Shown here piece after piece: positions 55,532-62,764 of a stretch of 64,000 bases of DNA (the stretch's first letter is position 1; each line of letters begins with the position of its first letter). Below the pieces are notes generated by a model. It did not search any database, was not told the origin of the DNA, and saw only the letters and a program-made list of their open reading frames with translations. The stretch spans positions 1 to 64,000 of the forward strand of contig NZ_ADGX01000005.1 of NCBI RefSeq assembly GCF_000177675.1. Reading direction: 5' to 3'. This DNA is from Parafrankia sp. EUN1f. GTDB taxonomy: Bacteria; Actinomycetota; Actinomycetes; Frankiales; Frankiaceae. A program made the position numbers and the translations under genes.

Positions 55532-56860
55532 TCAGGGGCGGGCGAGGCTGGGAGCCAGCGCGAGCAGGCCGGCGGCGAGTCGCTCGTCGCCCCCGACCCG
55601 GGCGGTGATCGCGCTCGCGGGCCTGCGGTCGCCGACGAGCAGGCAGAACTCGACGATCTCGACGGTCAGGGTGCCCGAGGCCGGGCGCGGATCGGCTGGT
55701 ACCGCGCGCGGATCGGACCGGGCCTGGTGTACCTGCGCGCCGTCCGGCCCGAGTGACCAGGTGCCGCCGCCCGGCCCCGTCAACGTCACCGTGAGCGTCC
55801 CTTCCGGCGGGGCCGCGGTCGCTGCGGCTGCCGAGGCTGCCCAGGGCACGGACAGCAGACGCAGGGCGAGATCGGCCATCGCGTGCAGGTCGTCCGCGCC
55901 GGGGTTCGGCACCGTGATTCCCGCAGCCGTGGCGATGTCCCGCGTGTGGATCCACGTCTCGAACGCGCGGGACGTCAGATGATCGCCGGGCGCGGCCGTC
56001 CAGCCATCCACCGTCACGGTGAGGGGTGCCTGGCTCCGTTCGGCCCGTTCGGTGGCTGCGCAGAGCTGTTCCGCCTGCTCGTACCAGCGTTGCCGCACTG
56101 CCTCGACCGGCCAGTCCCGGGCGGCGTCCAGGACGACGCCGGTCCGGGTCAGGGCGTCTCCCTCCACGTCCTCCGTGTTTCCGTCCTCCGCGTGTTCGTC
56201 CCTGCCACCGGCGCCGTCGGGTGCCCCGGTGGGGGCGGGTCGGGCGCCAGGGGGGATGAGGGCGGCGAGCAGCAGGCCGTCGACGGCGTGGAGGTGCAGG
56301 ACGAGCTCACGGACCGACCAGCCGGACGCGGCGGGCAGGTGCCAGTGCTTCGCCTCGAGCTCGATCAGCAGCCGGTCCAGCGCGCCGACCCGGTTGCCAT
56401 AGCAGGGGACGCCCGCGGCGCCTGCCAGGGCCGGCCGGTGCCCTGGCTCTGTCGAGGCCGCTCCCGGCATACGCGCACCCGGCGCCGCCTGGCGGGCCCC
56501 GGGCGCGGCCGGGCGGACCGCGAGCGCCGCGGTGAGGATGGCGGCGAGCGAGCCGGGGCCGTCGGCCGGCGGGGTGAGGTTGCCCTCCGACGTGCCGGGT
56601 AGCACCGGGGCCCGCGGTGCCGGGGTCTGTCGCACCGGGGCCTGCCGTACCGGGGCCTGCCGTACCGGGGCCTGCCGTACCGGGGCCTGTGGGGCTCCCG
56701 GGAGGAGGGCCGCGGCGTCGGTGGAGCAGGCCGCGCAGCTGCCGAGGTGCTTCTCGACGGCGTCGGCCTCGGCCGGGGTGCAGCTGCCCAGCAGGTAGGC
56801 GCCCAACAGGTCGCCCACACAGGTGCCGGACGTCCGCGCGACCGGCGGTTCGATCGTCAC
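55532..56860 (-). CDS. Zinc-finger anti-sigma factor fused to DinB/mycothiol maleylpyruvate-isomerase-like domain
   Basis: 442 aa, ATG 56860 overlapping the sigma stop (ATGA). Residues ~13-48 hold the anti-sigma zinc-binding signature (CVGDLLGAYLLG...VEKHLGSCAACS, H-x3-C-x2-C). Then an APVRQ repeat linker (4 copies), and from ~155 a MDMPI/DinB-like four-helix domain (GNRVGALDRLLIELEAKHWH, SVRELVLHLHAVDGLLL, AFETWIHTRDIATAAG with metal-binding His) and its C-terminal MDMPI_C-like part. No transmembrane helix, so it is a soluble anti-sigma. The fused domain may sense mycothiol, redox state or a metal and release the sigma factor (inference). Confidence 0.9.
   Translation of the reverse strand: MTIEPPVARTSGTCVGDLLGAYLLGSCTPAEADAVEKHLGSCAACSTDAAALLPGAPQAPVRQAPVRQAPVRQAPVRQTPAPRAPVLPGTSEGNLTPPADGPGSLAAILTAALAVRPAAPGARQAAPGARMPGAASTEPGHRPALAGAAGVPCYGNRVGALDRLLIELEAKHWHLPAASGWSVRELVLHLHAVDGLLLAALIPPGARPAPTGAPDGAGGRDEHAEDGNTEDVEGDALTRTGVVLDAARDWPVEAVRQRWYEQAEQLCAATERAERSQAPLTVTVDGWTAAPGDHLTSRAFETWIHTRDIATAAGITVPNPGADDLHAMADLALRLLSVPWAASAAAATAAPPEGTLTVTLTGPGGGTWSLGPDGAQVHQARSDPRAVPADPRPASGTLTVEIVEFCLLVGDRRPASAITARVGGDERLAAGLLALAPSLARP
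56626..56685. repeat. 15-bp tandem repeat coding APVRQ
   Basis: Units CCTGCCGTACCGGGG at 56641, 56656 and 56671, with a diverged copy at 56626. Lies in the linker of the anti-sigma fusion and keeps frame; the copy number could vary between strains. Confidence 0.85.
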
Positions 56861-57513
56861 GGCGCGACTCCCTGGTGGGCGAGGGTACGGGCGAGGGTGG
56901 CGAGAGCGGCGCGCATCCGCGACTTCGCGGTCCCCTCGGGGATCGCGAGTTTGGTCGCGATGTCACGGTAGGTCAGCTCTGTGTAGTACGCCAGCTCCAC
57001 GACCTCGCGCTGTTTCGGTGGCAGCGCGGCCACGGCGGCCCGCACCGCGTCCGAGTCCTCGCGAGCGAGCAGGTCGTCGCCGGGCGCGGCCTCGTCGACG
57101 TGCTGGACGAGGCCACGGGCGACCCGTTCGGTGGTGCGCCGAGAGGACTCCCGGCGCACCCAGTCGACGGCCCGCCGGTGTGCCAGCACAGCGAGCCAGG
57201 TGCGCAGCTCACCCCGGTTTGGATCGAACCGGAGCGGATGCTGCCAGAAGGTGACCAGCACCTCCTGCAGGACGTCTCGGGCGGCGTCGGCGTCACCGGT
57301 CACCCGCACGGCGACCGCCAGCAGGTAGTGGGCATACCGCTGATGCACTTCGGCGAGCGCGGCCGGATCACCGGAGACGACCCGACCGTGCAGGTCGACG
57401 ATGTCGCGGTCGGGATGGGGAGTGGGCGTGGGCGCCGAACCCCTGTGCGGCCGGTCGGCCGCCCTGTCCGGGCTGTGCACGATGGGCATGGTAGCGCACA
57501 CACTCCGCATCAT
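56857..57513 (-). CDS. ECF-family RNA polymerase sigma factor
   Basis: Up to 218 aa. Sigma-2 region: YLLAVAVRVTGDADAARDVL and QEVLVTFWQHPLRFDPNRGE, RTWLAVLAHRRAVDWVRRE. Sigma-4 region: LPPKQREVVELAYYTELTYR and TKLAIPEGTAKSRMRAALA. Closest in style to SigK/SigL-type ECF factors that pair with soluble or membrane anti-sigmas. Start uncertain: ATGs at 57513, 57510 and 57489. Third gene of the TPR-NicO-sigma-antisigma operon, coupled to its anti-sigma by an ATGA overlap. Likely directs its own operon and the divergent DUF4331 gene (inference). Confidence 0.93.
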   Translation of the reverse strand: MMRSVCATMPIVHSPDRAADRPHRGSAPTPTPHPDRDIVDLHGRVVSGDPAALAEVHQRYAHYLLAVAVRVTGDADAARDVLQEVLVTFWQHPLRFDPNRGELRTWLAVLAHRRAVDWVRRESSRRTTERVARGLVQHVDEAAPGDDLLAREDSDAVRAAVAALPPKQREVVELAYYTELTYRDIATKLAIPEGTAKSRMRAALATLARTLAHQGVAP

Positions 57514-57552
57514 CCGGTCCCGCTCGCCCGGTCTCGTCGCTCGCCGTACCCT

Positions 57553-57600
57553 CTGCTCACGAGATGACCCGGACGCCTGCTCACGAGATGACCTGGACGC
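57553..57600. repeat. 24-bp tandem duplication across the NicO stop codon
   Basis: CTGCTCACGAGATGACCCGG plus ACGC at 57553-57576, and again at 57577-57600 with one change. The copy holding the stop codon is followed by a duplicate with a second in-phase TGA. Confidence 0.85.
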
Positions 57601-59230
57601 CGGCGCGCAGGGCCACCGTCGCGCCGACGACGACGATCAGCGCCGCGCTCGCCACCGGCGCCCAGTACAGGCCCGCGGTAAGCCCCGGAGCCGCGGCGCG
57701 CACCCGGTGCAGCAGGGGGACGAGCGTGCGGTCGAGCAGGAAACCCGCCCCGATCAGGGTCAGCGCCATGCCCGCGCCGTAGGCGAGGACGAGCAGAAGC
57801 CCGAACCACGCCCGTCCCAGCGCGACCGCGCCGAGCAGTACGACGATCGCCGACGGTGTCGGCACCATCCCGCCGGCGAATCCGGCGGCGAGCAGGCTCC
57901 GCAGCTGTGACCCGTCGGCCGCCGGATGTGGATGCGCATGCCAGCGCCCCCCGTGCCCGTGCCCGTGCCCGTGCGGGTGCGCGTGCGCGTGCGCGTTTGC
58001 ATCGCTGTGGCTGTGGCGATGGTGGGTGTGATCGGGGACCAGGGCCTGGTGGTCCAGGCCGGCCACCGACGGGCTGAGCAGCCCGGATGCGCCGGCGAGT
58101 CTCGATCGCAGCAGGCTCGCGCCGATCCCGGCTATCAGCAGGCCGCTCGCGACGCCGAGCCAGGGGTATATCCGCTCCGGAGCGAAGCCGCTTGACGCTG
58201 ACAGCACGATCGCGAGGATCAGCACACCGCAGGTGTGGGTGAGCGTCACCGCCGTCGCGGTGGCGGCCAGCTGCCGCCCGGTCACCGAGCCTCCGACGAT
58301 CCGGGCCGCCATGACCGTCTTGCCATGCCCTGGGGCGAACGCATGGGCGGTGCCCAGCACGAATGCGGCGAGCAGGGCGAGCAGGCCCACCCCGACGGTG
58401 AGCGAATCCCGCCTGACCAGGCCGTCGACCCAGCCGGTGAGGCCGTCCCCGCCCCGTGCCCGCCGCGCCTGTTCGGCCGCACCGGTTCCGGATGTGCCGG
58501 TTCCGGGTGTTCCGGCGCCGGCCGCGGGGCCTGTCAGCGGGTCCGTTGCCGCGGGCCCGCCGGGACGCACGGTCAGGGTGGCGCTGGTGACGTCCGACGG
58601 CCCGCGCAGAGGATCGTCCGGGTATCGGGTGAGCAGATCGGTGGGCGAGCGGTCGGGTACGTCCGAGGCGAGCAGTGTCGTGCCGTCCCCGACGGCGACC
58701 GTCTCCCGCCACCCGATCCGGTCGGTGTAGGTGGCCAGCCGGTACTGGACCGCGCTCACCGGCCCACCGGTCTGGGCGGAGTACCGGCAGACCAGTCGCA
58801 TCGTCGCCAGCCCGCCGGACCCGGGCGGGAACGTCACCGAGCCGCCGGTGCCGACGAGCGGGCTGACCCGGCTGTCGAGCACGAGCCTGGTCTGCCTGGA
58901 CGTCCGGGCGCATTCGGCCTCCTGCCAGCGTGCGGGGCCCAGCGCGTCCACATCGGGCCGCAGCTGCGCGGTCGGGATCTCGGCGAAGTCGACGATCACG
59001 TCGATGTGGACCGTCTCGACGCCGACCCGCAGCACACTGGCGCTGTTGACCGTGAAGTTGCCCAGCGGATGCGCTGATGCGGCGCCGCCGCCCGCCAGTA
59101 CCAGCGCGACCACGGCCGTGGCGAGGGCGGCCGCCCGGCGCGGCCAAGTCCAGGTCCAGGTCCGGGCCCAGGAGCGGGGATGGGGGCGGGGAGGGATCCA
59201 GGTCCGGGTCGGGGCCTCGGTGCGGGTCAT
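57581..59230 (-). CDS. NicO/RcnA-type nickel-cobalt transporter with large extracytoplasmic domain
   Basis: 549 aa, ATG 59230 overlapping the TPR gene stop (ATGA). A Trp/Arg-rich leader precedes a signal/TM segment (ALATAVVALVLAGGGAASA). Then ~200 residues of extracytoplasmic domain (HPLGNFTVNSASVL...), and a six-to-seven-helix core with the family motif LGTAHAFAPGHGKTVMAA and GGMVPTPSAIVVLL. A His-rich cytoplasmic loop lies between (HTHHRHSHSDANAHAHAHPH), a probable metal buffer or sensor. The family exports or imports Ni2+/Co2+; the direction here is unknown. Operon with an ECF sigma factor suggests that metal level controls the module. Confidence 0.9.
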   Translation of the reverse strand: MTRTEAPTRTWIPPRPHPRSWARTWTWTWPRRAAALATAVVALVLAGGGAASAHPLGNFTVNSASVLRVGVETVHIDVIVDFAEIPTAQLRPDVDALGPARWQEAECARTSRQTRLVLDSRVSPLVGTGGSVTFPPGSGGLATMRLVCRYSAQTGGPVSAVQYRLATYTDRIGWRETVAVGDGTTLLASDVPDRSPTDLLTRYPDDPLRGPSDVTSATLTVRPGGPAATDPLTGPAAGAGTPGTGTSGTGAAEQARRARGGDGLTGWVDGLVRRDSLTVGVGLLALLAAFVLGTAHAFAPGHGKTVMAARIVGGSVTGRQLAATATAVTLTHTCGVLILAIVLSASSGFAPERIYPWLGVASGLLIAGIGASLLRSRLAGASGLLSPSVAGLDHQALVPDHTHHRHSHSDANAHAHAHPHGHGHGHGGRWHAHPHPAADGSQLRSLLAAGFAGGMVPTPSAIVVLLGAVALGRAWFGLLLVLAYGAGMALTLIGAGFLLDRTLVPLLHRVRAAAPGLTAGLYWAPVASAALIVVVGATVALRAGVQVIS

Positions 59231-60642
59231 CGGGTGCCGCCTTCGAGGGAGGTGAGCAGGGTGCGTGCCCGGGGCGCGTGCAGCGGCGAGAAATGCGGGT
59301 CGGTCTCCAGCGCCGTGCGCAGGTCGCTGATCGCGGCGTCGGTCTGCCCGAGCGCCGCCCGCACGACGCCACGGTGATAGAGGAACAGCGCGCGACGCAG
59401 GCCGAGTCCGAGTGCCGAGTCCGCGCTGGCCAGGGCCTCGTCATCGCGTCCGAGCCGGTGCAGCACCCAGCCGCGGGCGTCGTCGACGAACACGCCGGCC
59501 CGTCGCGGCTCCGCGCCGAGGCCCGTGTCGGGCGCGGTGCTGGAGGCCGGTGGCGCCCACGCGGTGGCCGGGTCACCGTGGTCGGCCTCGAACAGGGCCA
59601 GCTCGACGTCCACCTCGACGCCCTGGGCGCGCAGCAGCGCCGCGGTCGAGCGCACCAGGTCGTACTGGCGCCGCGCCTCGTTCATCCGGCCGACCGCTTC
59701 GAGTAGCTCGCCGTGCTCGGCGACGATCCACGGCTGCGGGCTGCGGGTGGTGGCGACGCGGTAGTCGGCCAGCGCGGCCTCGATCTCACCGCGAGCGGCG
59801 GCGACCCGGGCACGGCCGACGAGCAGCTGCACCGACGACGGGTCCTGGACGAGCCCGCGCCGGTAGGCGTCGGCCGCGCCGTCGAGATCGCCGCGGTTGC
59901 GGGACAGCTCTCCGAGGTGGAAGTAGGCGAACGCGGCGTCGGCGGGGGATGTCGCGTCGGCGATGACCCGCCGCAGTGTCTCGGCCGCGGGCTCCGGCTG
60001 CCCACGCAGCTCGTACGCGTAGGCGACCCGGGCCAGCGACGCCACATCGGGACGCAGATCGACCGCGGTCTGTGCCGCCGGCCAGGCCTCGGGGTAGCGC
60101 CCGAGCTCGACGAGGGCGTCGAACCGCACCCCGTGAGCTGTCGCGTTGAACGGATTGACGGCAATGGCGGCGTCCGCGGCACGCAGCGCGCCGGGGAAGT
60201 CGTGACGCGCGGCGGCGAGCGCGGCCCGCCCGGCGAGCGCGGTGTCGTTGCCCTCGGGCCGCAGTGCCAGCGAGTGGGCGAAGGCGCTCTCGGCCCGGGG
60301 GTAGGACGTCGGGTCGGCGGTGCGTCGGGCCAGCTCGACATAGGCGAGGCCGAGCTCGGCCCAGGCCGGCCAGTCTCCGGGCACCCGGCCCAGCCGGTCC
60401 TGCAGGCGTGCGACGGAAGCGTCCTGCGCACCTGTCACCGCTCGGGCCGTTCTGGGTGCCCCGGCTGCTCGGGGTTTCGGCGGTGCGGAGCCGGTGCCTT
60501 CGCCTGCCTGTATGCCCGCCGTCCCGCCGATCGCTGTCAGGGCCCCCGCCGTCAGGACGACCGCACAGACCAGGCCGGTGAGCGTCAACGCCCTGCTCGG
60601 CCCCGCCCTTTTCGCAGCCCTTGTTGCGTGCCGCCACCACAT
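59227..60642 (-). CDS. TPR-repeat protein with N-terminal membrane anchor/signal
   Basis: 471 aa, ATG 60642 after GGAGG. An N-terminal hydrophobic segment (ALTLTGLVCAVVLTAGALTA) follows a basic start, so it is membrane-anchored or secreted. Then about eight TPRs: DWPAWAELGLAYVELARRTA, ALAGRAALAAARHDFPGALR, FAYFHLGELSRNRGDLDGAA, RGWVLHRLGRDDEALASADS. First gene of the TPR-NicO-sigma-antisigma operon, divergent from the DUF4331 gene over 215 bp. TPRs probably scaffold an extracytoplasmic complex with the DUF4331 protein or the NicO external domain; this is inferred from location only. Confidence 0.9.
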   Translation of the reverse strand: MWWRHATRAAKRAGPSRALTLTGLVCAVVLTAGALTAIGGTAGIQAGEGTGSAPPKPRAAGAPRTARAVTGAQDASVARLQDRLGRVPGDWPAWAELGLAYVELARRTADPTSYPRAESAFAHSLALRPEGNDTALAGRAALAAARHDFPGALRAADAAIAVNPFNATAHGVRFDALVELGRYPEAWPAAQTAVDLRPDVASLARVAYAYELRGQPEPAAETLRRVIADATSPADAAFAYFHLGELSRNRGDLDGAADAYRRGLVQDPSSVQLLVGRARVAAARGEIEAALADYRVATTRSPQPWIVAEHGELLEAVGRMNEARRQYDLVRSTAALLRAQGVEVDVELALFEADHGDPATAWAPPASSTAPDTGLGAEPRRAGVFVDDARGWVLHRLGRDDEALASADSALGLGLRRALFLYHRGVVRAALGQTDAAISDLRTALETDPHFSPLHAPRARTLLTSLEGGTR

Positions 60643-60857
60643 GGCCGTCCTCCCCGCGTCCGCGTCCGCCGTCCAGGCGCCCGGCGGTGCAGCCAGGCGT
60701 CCGGCAGCGGTTCGGCGCGGTCAGGCCCGCGGACCGGTGCGGGCGGCGACCAAAAACGTCGGGTAGCCGACACGATCCGCGCGGTCTCCACCGCCGAACC
60801 ACCGGCGTTGATCGGACCGGCGCTCAGGACCGGTCCCGCGATCCCCCAGGGGGAAGC

Positions 60858-62318
60858 ATGAGCAGGCAGAAGGCTGCCCGCGCCGGCGCAGGCGTCCGCC
60901 ATCCGCGGCGGGCGCGGCTGTTCCGGCGGCGCCGTGGCGTCGTCGGCGTGGCCGCGCTCGTCGTCGGCGCGACGGCCGCCGCGCTGGTGGTCCCACCGAT
61001 CGCCGCCGAGGCGTCGAGCCACCGGGAGGCACCGCTGATCAGCGGCGACCCGGCGGTCGACAACACCGACACCTACGCCTTCGTCAGCCCCGACGACCCG
61101 AACACGGTGACGCTCGTCGCCAACTGGCTGCCCTTCCAGGAACCGGCTGGCGGGCCGAACTTCTACCCGTTCTCCACCGATGCCCGGTACGACATCAACG
61201 TCGACAACAACGGTGACGCGAAGCCCGACATCACCTACCGCTGGACCTTCGCCAGCAGCTACCGCAACCAGAACACGTTCCTCTACAACACCGGGCCGGT
61301 GACCTCCCTCGACGACCCGGACCTGAACTTCCGCCAGACCTACCGGCTGGAACGGATCAGCGGCGGGAAGTCCACGGTGGTCGCCGACAAGGTGCCGGTC
61401 GCGCCGTCGTATGTCGGCAACGCGTCGATGCCGGACTACCTCGCGCTGCGCACGGCGTCGCTCACCCAGCTGCCGGGCGGCGGCAAGACGTTCGCCGGAC
61501 AGGCCGACGACCCGTTCTTCCTGGACCTGAGGGTGTTCGACCTGCTGTACGGGGGCGACCTCTCCGAGGTCGGCCAGGACAGCCTCGCCGGGTTCAACGT
61601 GAACTCGATCGTGCTGCAGGTGCCGAAGGCCGAGCTCGCGCTCAGGGGCGACCCGGCGCGGAACCCGGTGATCGGGGTGTGGAGCAGCACCGAGCGGCGC
61701 AGCGCCTCGTTGTACGGGCCGACCGACGGCTCCGGCCAGCAGCTGTCCTTCGGTGGCTGGTCGCAGGTCTCGCGGCTCGGCGCGCCGCTGGTCAACGAGG
61801 TGGTCGTGCCGCTGGGGCAGAAGGACCGGTTCAACGCCTCCACCCCGGCCCGCGACGCCCAGTTCCTGAAGTTCGTCACCGACCCCGAGCTGCCGAAGCT
61901 CATCCAGGCGATCTACAAGATCCCCGCACCACCGACGCCGCGCAAGGATCTGGTCGCGGTCTTCCTGACCGGTGTCAGCAAGGACAACCTCGGGGTCGAC
62001 CTGAACGCTCACGCGCTGAACGCCGATGTCGACCGGGCGAAGATCGCACCGTCGGAACAGCTGCGGCTGAACATGTCCATCCCGGCGACCGCGACGCCGA
62101 ACCGGCTTGGCGTCCTCGGCGGTGACACGGCCGGCTACCCGAACGGCCGCCGGCTCGGTGACGACGTCGTCGACATCTCGCTGCAGGCCGTGGAAGGTGC
62201 TCTGCTGCCGAAGCCGCCGGCCGCGGTCACCGGCCTCGGTGACGGTGTCGACGGGCCCGATGTGCGCTTCCGGGGCTGGTTCCCCTATGTCGGCCTGCCC
62301 ACCTCGGGCTCGAGCTGA
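60858..62318 (+). CDS. DUF4331-family secreted protein
   Basis: 486 aa, ATG 60858 after GGGGGAAGC. An Arg-rich n-region and hydrophobic stretch (GVVGVAALVVGATAAALVVP) form a signal peptide. The mature protein begins ASSHREAPLISGDPAVDNTD, the hallmark opening of DUF4331 (SHREAP..., then DTYAFVSPDD). Later DPFFLDLRVFDLLYG, NVNSIVLQVPKAEL and RNPVIGVWSSTERR are family-typical. The biochemical role of DUF4331 is not established. It is divergent from the TPR-metal transporter-sigma operon and followed by two lipoprotein genes, which suggests a surface complex under sigma control. Confidence 0.93.
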   Translation: MSRQKAARAGAGVRHPRRARLFRRRRGVVGVAALVVGATAAALVVPPIAAEASSHREAPLISGDPAVDNTDTYAFVSPDDPNTVTLVANWLPFQEPAGGPNFYPFSTDARYDINVDNNGDAKPDITYRWTFASSYRNQNTFLYNTGPVTSLDDPDLNFRQTYRLERISGGKSTVVADKVPVAPSYVGNASMPDYLALRTASLTQLPGGGKTFAGQADDPFFLDLRVFDLLYGGDLSEVGQDSLAGFNVNSIVLQVPKAELALRGDPARNPVIGVWSSTERRSASLYGPTDGSGQQLSFGGWSQVSRLGAPLVNEVVVPLGQKDRFNASTPARDAQFLKFVTDPELPKLIQAIYKIPAPPTPRKDLVAVFLTGVSKDNLGVDLNAHALNADVDRAKIAPSEQLRLNMSIPATATPNRLGVLGGDTAGYPNGRRLGDDVVDISLQAVEGALLPKPPAAVTGLGDGVDGPDVRFRGWFPYVGLPTSGSS

Positions 62319-62332
62319 CGGGCGGCGACGAC

Positions 62333-62764
62333 ATGAGCGCAATTCTGCGCGGTGGCCACCGCGGCCGCCACGCATCCTTACTCGCCGCCGTCCTCGCTCT
62401 CGGCGTCGTCGTCGCCGGAACGACGGCCTGCTCGGATGACGGCCCACCGCCGTTGCCCGAGGCCGGTGCGTTCGCCGCCGGCGTCTGCCGGGACCTGGCC
62501 CCGGACCTGATCGAGACGCTGCGGCTCACCCAGTCGGTGCCCGGCGCCGCGGACGGGATCGCGACGCTCGCCCGTGACCTCGTCCCATCCCAGGAGAAGC
62601 TCTACAACCAGATCGGGGCCGCGGGGGAGTACGCCGGCGATCTGGAGCGGGTCACCACCGCGGTCGGTTTCCTTCGGCTGCGGGTGGACGCCGGAACCTA
62701 CGAACCGGCCCTGCTCACGGAGGTGATGACGAGCACCCGGCAGCTGGTGGAGCGCTGTACCTGA
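62333..62764 (+). CDS. Small lipoprotein of unknown function
   Basis: 143 aa, ATG 62333, 14 nt after the DUF4331 stop. Signal peptide with lipobox AGTTACSDD (Cys about 33), then a helical domain (FAAGVCRDLAPDLIETLRLT, TLARDLVPSQEKLYNQIGAA) with two further Cys that may pair (VCRD and ERCT at the C-terminus). Not recognised as a named family. Probably cotranscribed with the DUF4331 gene and anchored outside the membrane next to it. Confidence 0.85.
   Translation: MSAILRGGHRGRHASLLAAVLALGVVVAGTTACSDDGPPPLPEAGAFAAGVCRDLAPDLIETLRLTQSVPGAADGIATLARDLVPSQEKLYNQIGAAGEYAGDLERVTTAVGFLRLRVDAGTYEPALLTEVMTSTRQLVERCT

Follow-up and report, generated by a model that had tools for sequence, protein, structure and literature searches.

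Introduction

The described systems closest to the locus reported here are the anglerase-HupE/UreJ-2 permeases, the secreted DUF4198 proteins, the RcnA/NiCoT transporters and the SigK-RskA regulators of mycobacteria. Anglerases bind copper with a Kd of about 70 nM and nickel with a Kd of 220 nM, and they are proposed to act in metal capture and uptake (PMC12537917). The same paper treats DUF4198 as a separate family and makes no mention of DUF4331, TPR, NicO or a sigma factor (PMC12537917). Relatives of SigK are under redox control through cysteines; Cys133 and Cys183 are found in 94% of ECF18 and 56% of ECF19 sigmas, and SigK proteins without these cysteines more often lack a normal RskA (PMC7509140). 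DUF4331 has no assigned function, and no paper on it was found in the literature searched.

We analysed a window of 64,000 nucleotides from Parafrankia sp. EUN1f (genome G000, 9.35 Mb), in which a first-pass annotation had proposed a metal- or redox-responsive surface module made up of five protein families. The Frankiaceae genomes used for comparison include Parafrankia soli, P. colletiae, Frankia canadensis (G002) and Pseudofrankia.

Results and Discussion

Layout of the locus

The genes for the TPR protein, NicO, the sigma factor and the anti-sigma follow one another on the minus strand and face divergent plus-strand genes for DUF4331 and a lipoprotein-like protein (Table 1). All six genes were found where the first-pass annotation had placed them, with the domains it had named (window open reading frames and Pfam). 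It had also read two ATGA overlaps; the one between TPR and NicO is correct, whereas sigma and anti-sigma overlap by GTGA, the start codon of the anti-sigma being GTG. The lipoprotein gave no family in a Pfam search and was dropped as a core member, as it is confined to Frankiaceae loci.

Table 1. Features of the DUF4331 locus, in coordinates of the window.
Feature	Position	Strand	Basis
Soluble anti-sigma, 442 aa, zf-HC2 + MDMPI/DinB	55532..56860	-	Pfam; His189/Glu301/His305 invariant in 12 sequences
Anti-sigma MDMPI_N domain, mycothiol-type DinB	55931..56383	-	Pfam, residues 160-310
Anti-sigma zf-HC2 zinc motif H-x3-C-x2-C	56726..56812	-	Pfam, residues 17-45
ECF sigma, SigK-related, without SigK Cys133/Cys183 pair	56857..57513	-	Pfam, NCBIfam, alignment
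NicO permease + N-terminal extracytoplasmic domain	57581..59230	-	Pfam, NCBIfam, fold search
NicO His-rich loop	57923..58033	-	Sequence; low-confidence loop in structure model
NicO anglerase-like N-terminal domain; predicted mature N-terminus His54 (ASA/HPLGNFTVN)	58565..59071	-	N-termini reading, 9gce match, hhalign
Membrane-anchored extracytoplasmic TPR protein	59227..60642	-	Pfam; hydrophobic N-terminus
SigK-type promoter, TPR side, GTCC-N16-CGAAC	60710..60734	-	Motif in 10/10 family loci
Inverted repeat GTCGG-GTAG-CCGAC, directly 5' of DUF4331 -35	60758..60771		Alignment
SigK-type promoter, DUF4331 side, ATCC-N16-CGAAC	60775..60799	+	Motif in 10/10 family loci, expected 0.42
Secreted DUF4331 protein, 486 aa	60858..62318	+	PF14224 E 8e-166
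Codons Ser53-Ser54-His55, predicted mature NH2-Ser-Ser-His (ATCUN form)	61014..61022	+	N-termini reading
Lipoprotein-like protein, Frankiaceae loci only	62333..62764	+	Neighbourhood comparison

Conserved neighbourhood

DUF4331 occurs in 11 of the 35 Frankiaceae genomes and in 68 of 396 sampled Actinomycetota genomes. Of 55 DUF4331 loci of Actinomycetota, 48 have a TPR gene within 6.5 kb and 39 a NicO gene, NicO not being detected in the other 16; for these three genes the clustering is more than accidental. A conserved neighbourhood in other actinobacteria, as had been expected, therefore exists for DUF4331-TPR-NicO but not for the five families together; the zf-HC2-MDMPI anti-sigma and its sigma are part of the locus in G000, G019 and Frankia canadensis alone. 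The five-gene conserved module was dropped; in other genomes SigK-RskA is the regulator, either next to the locus or at another place in the genome. The conserved unit is the operon DUF4331-TPR-NicO across Actinomycetota, with the sigma pair of the window as an addition.

Plasmids of Proteobacteria repeatedly show the order DUF4331 - TPR-like - HupE/UreJ (Marinobacter, Comamonadaceae, Lichenicola and Pseudoalteromonas), and in Pseudoalteromonas an ECF sigma with an RskA_C anti-sigma stands directly upstream of DUF4331-TPR-HupE. Divergent DUF4331 genes adjoin a Ni/Co transporter of NixA type in Rhizobium bangladeshense and HupE in R. leguminosarum. Another divergent copy belongs to a Pseudomonas plasmid operon (L206:3911-6854) that runs DUF4331 - cytochrome c - DUF4198 - HupE and so unites two families with N-terminal His motifs (DUF4331 and DUF4198). 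No neighbour of these kinds was found beside the other divergent copies.

Several further arrangements were observed. On plasmids of Sulfitobacter, Jannaschia and Paracoccus (L141, L178 and L180), DUF4331 has an A24 prepilin peptidase on one side and type II secretion genes on the other, with neither TPR nor NicO, and may there be a type II secretion substrate. Downstream of DUF4331-TPR-NicO on a Streptomyces anulatus plasmid is a fasciclin-domain gene (L144:12253-12906); the mycobacterial SigK targets MPT70 and MPT83 are fasciclin proteins. In locus L056, two DUF4331 genes stand in tandem and each has the SSH start.

Divergent SigK-type promoters

The motif ATCC-N16/17-CGAA was found 5' of DUF4331 in all ten Frankiaceae loci (expected 0.42), and permuted motifs, searched on this side only, gave 0 matches. 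On the opposite strand, RTCC-N16-CGAA precedes TPR in 10/10 Frankiaceae loci (expected 0.65). The DUF4331-side motif is also present in 21 of 46 other loci (expected 1.16) and 5' of nearly all the Frankiaceae sigK-rskA pairs read; 'SigK-type' here refers to this motif common to sigK-rskA genes within the family and not to the published SigK consensus. Genome-wide, RTCCG-N15-CGAAC gave 180 sites against 24 for the reversed pattern, a control that does not keep dinucleotides; the sites are not assigned to genes and we claim no regulon. A common -35/-10 had been predicted before the TPR, sigma and DUF4331 genes: it is present before TPR and DUF4331 (10/10 relatives), but none was found directly before the window sigma, whose transcription would start at the TPR promoter or at one not seen. 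The inverted repeat next to the DUF4331 promoter is kept in the closest relatives and is a possible operator.

Exchange of the sigma and anti-sigma pair

Pfam recognises ECF sigma regions 2 and 4 in the window sigma, which scores 132 bits with NF007228, below the cut-off of 226, and lacks both Cys133 and Cys183 in the alignment. Its partner contains zf-HC2 (E 2e-8) and MDMPI_N (E 1.5e-7) and is not a membrane RskA with RskA_C, the type present in relatives. As had been proposed, the anti-sigma is soluble, with no clear transmembrane-like stretch (maximum 19-residue hydropathy 1.65 vs 2.11 for an RskA). An H-x3-C-x2-C motif after an N-terminal helix, beside an ECF sigma, agrees with the zinc anti-sigmas (ASDI, zf-HC2).

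Seven DUF4331-bearing Frankiaceae have a SigK orthologue (68% or more) and four lack it (G000, G019, G002 and G025). G000, G019 and G002 alone have a window-type sigma behind NicO, which makes three of the four SigK-less and none of the seven SigK-bearing DUF4331 genomes, a distribution that represents few independent events among related genomes, G000 and G019 being close relatives. The window-type sigma lies on another contig in G025 and away from the DUF4331 locus in G017, G020, G024, G030 and G032. Because the promoters are kept where SigK is missing, the window sigma may recognise their motif, and SigK-RskA control appears to have been exchanged here for a sigma with a soluble zf-HC2-MDMPI anti-sigma.

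The pair could instead be merely adjacent, with a different ECF sigma of the genome directing transcription of DUF4331 and TPR-NicO. This class of sigma and anti-sigma does occur without DUF4331 in Actinomadura, Streptomyces, other Frankiaceae genomes and elsewhere, and ATCC-N16-CGAA is absent from the upstream region of the MDMPI-type sigma itself at most unlinked sites. We nevertheless consider this somewhat unlikely, since no other sigma of G000 comes near the window sigma in similarity to SigK (E 1e-26 vs 3e-13 for the next), the promoters are intact despite the missing SigK, and linkage to NicO is seen in SigK-less genomes only.

Two observations concern these sigma genes individually. 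A long conserved block (CATGGGACACTTCG...TTTCCGCGGCCG) lies 5' of the MDMPI-type sigma in one genus (L074, L075 and L076) and is possibly its own promoter. In Frankia canadensis (L006/L101), the NicO-adjacent sigma gene has an in-frame TAG and the rest of the operon is open, a point against the model given below.

A further reading, about as doubtful as mere adjacency, is that the MDMPI domain works as a mycothiol-dependent enzyme or as a sensor of mycothiol and that the module answers to thiol or redox state, metals being secondary. The residues H189, E301 and H305 (His, Glu-x3-His), which we take to be the MDMPI metal triad, are invariant in 12/12 sequences. The host genome has mshC, and in SigK relatives cysteines mediate redox control (PMC7509140). 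The domain match is weak, however (32.6 bits with MDMPI_N vs a cut-off of 24.2; 40 with TIGR03083 vs a cut-off of 50), and a mycothiol enzyme as the main function was considered and dropped. In the exchanged pair as we read it, the anti-sigma may sense mycothiol or a metal.

NicO and its outer domain

NicO belongs to PF03824 (E 9e-9). The His-rich loop and external domain that had been described were both found, but the domain has about 170 and not 200 residues. It opens with HPLGNFTVN after A-S-A; AHPLG is present in nearly all NicO relatives and proteobacterial HupE proteins have A/H at the predicted cleavage site. By the rule-based prediction of cleavage, the His would directly follow the signal peptide in NicO as it does in anglerases. 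Among solved structures, the best match to the model of the outer domain is 9GCE (Foldseek E 5e-4, probability 1.0, TMt 0.47), the Ang-1 domain of a HupE/UreJ-2 protein with copper bound, followed by PA4063 and then the zinc protein ZrgA. The match points to the beta-sandwich fold of 9GCE in the NicO domain, and an hhalign comparison with HupE from DUF4331 operons (probability 82%, E 1e-5) supports distant homology between NicO and HupE across signal peptide and domain. The permease fused to this domain is NicO (PF03824) and not HupE/UreJ-2.

In NCBIfam, NicO scores best with the Ni/Co efflux family NF007454 (79 bits, E 3e-22), and it has an RcnA-like PGHGKT stretch besides its His-rich loop, features that would suit detoxification, with DUF4331 buffering excess external metal and NicO exporting Ni/Co or another metal like RcnA of E. 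coli. We judge this unlikely: the score is below the family cut-off of 195 bits, the HupE and NixA partners at other loci are of uptake type, judged by their known relatives, and an outer-face capture domain with an N-terminal His is easier to reconcile with uptake, the role proposed for anglerases (PMC12537917).

The N-terminus of DUF4331

All 69 main-family DUF4331 sequences, selected by a His-centred pattern with missed ones then read directly, carry [S/A]-S-H-R-E-A at the predicted processed N-terminus, equivalent to NH2-[S/A]-X-His. The motif directly follows a predicted signal cleavage point or Met; Ala stands at the predicted cleavage point in 54 of 60 sequences, and two proteins without a signal peptide start Met-Ser-Ser-His. 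In the divergent branch, 25 of 26 sequences start Met-[S/A/P]-X-His or carry X-X-His after a predicted signal peptide, although L187, L193 and L205 hinge on the chosen start or cleavage site; the lone exception is L200, a short copy that has Tyr. By comparison, His at +3 was found in only 2 of 59 other predicted secreted proteins from the same loci. The NH2-X-X-His arrangement is that of ATCUN motifs, which bind Cu(II) and Ni(II) at a free N-terminus. With the predicted processing, the DUF4331 N-terminus has the form of a putative ATCUN Cu(II)/Ni(II) motif.

The structure model of DUF4331 (pLDDT 83.7, pTM 0.84) has low confidence at residues 1-56, which would fit a free tail and an uncut signal peptide alike and are no evidence either way. 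A fold search of solved structures with the DUF4331 core gave no match under E 0.001, and a PDB sequence search with DUF4331, NicO, HupE and the anti-sigma returned nothing useful. Since the core has no fold match, the conserved His could serve the fold or an enzyme; that DUF4331 is some other surface or adhesion protein or an enzyme, with the SSHREAP start used in folding or catalysis and TPR/NicO in export or assembly, also draws on the Rhodobacterales copies that adjoin type II secretion genes and have neither NicO nor TPR, but is distinctly unlikely, as folding hardly explains a constant spacing between processing point and His with a signal peptide or Met alone, nor the recurrent pairing with metal permeases of three families.

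A model for the locus

The conserved operon, N-terminal motifs, fold match, promoters and regulator distribution are read from sequence; from them we infer processing, metal binding, transport direction, promoter recognition by the sigma and the signal. On balance, we lean towards a surface metal-capture module, for copper first and nickel second, under an exchanged regulator. Copper is preferred because both N-terminal motifs prefer Cu(II), and nickel stays possible because of the permease families. The metal theme of the first-pass annotation has gained strength, as both exported proteins, DUF4331 and NicO, have N-terminal metal-binding sequence features.

In the proposed mechanism, secreted DUF4331 would chelate metal through its free NH2-Ser-Ser-His, the membrane-anchored TPR protein would keep the parts together, and the anglerase-like domain of NicO, with its N-terminal His, would receive the metal for transport by the membrane part. 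One ECF sigma may activate DUF4331 and TPR-NicO jointly at the two divergent SigK-type promoters. The ancestral redox-switched SigK with its membrane RskA would have been lost in the window lineage, and the sigma with its cytoplasmic zf-HC2-MDMPI anti-sigma placed behind NicO, so that the TPR promoter would drive positive feedback. Under this arrangement a cytoplasmic signal, a metal or a thiol acting at the zinc motif or DinB site, would replace a transmembrane one.

A broader proposal, which we make tentatively, is that DUF4331 is an unrecognised ATCUN family spanning several phyla and that, together with TPR and anglerase-type permeases, it makes up a Cu/Ni capture system not described before, with control of the SigK type; in Frankiaceae, a cytoplasmic zinc/DinB anti-sigma would have taken the place of the transmembrane redox switch at the same promoters. 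DUF4331 is widespread in bacteria, and its N-terminal motif and permease partner make its function a simple binding question. If true, the replacement of SigK-RskA by a soluble zinc/DinB anti-sigma, at promoters that look unchanged, would be a natural rewiring of a regulon's input with its output kept, and it bears on the signal of SigK.

Comparison with described systems

NicO shares with the anglerase-HupE/UreJ-2 permeases (Ang-1, Ang-2; 9GCE) a signal peptide, a predicted mature N-terminal His, a beta-sandwich and fusion to a metal permease, and homologous HupE proteins occur in proteobacterial DUF4331 operons. In NicO, however, the permease part is not HupE. With the RcnA/NiCoT transporters, it has PF03824, the His-rich loop and the RcnA-like PGHGKT stretch in common, but it carries an additional N-terminal domain and scores far below the RcnA family cut-off. 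DUF4198, secreted and Ni-binding with an N-terminal His, resembles DUF4331 in the proposed N-terminal chelation by an exported protein near HupE-type permeases; the motif is NH2-His in DUF4198 and NH2-X-X-His in DUF4331. The SigK-RskA systems (ECF18/19, mycobacteria) are matched by a SigK-related sigma, by the motif of the family's sigK genes at DUF4331 and TPR, and by true RskA partners in DUF4331 loci of other genera, whereas the window differs from them in lacking the Cys133/183 pair and RskA_C, in its soluble MDMPI anti-sigma and in its target genes.
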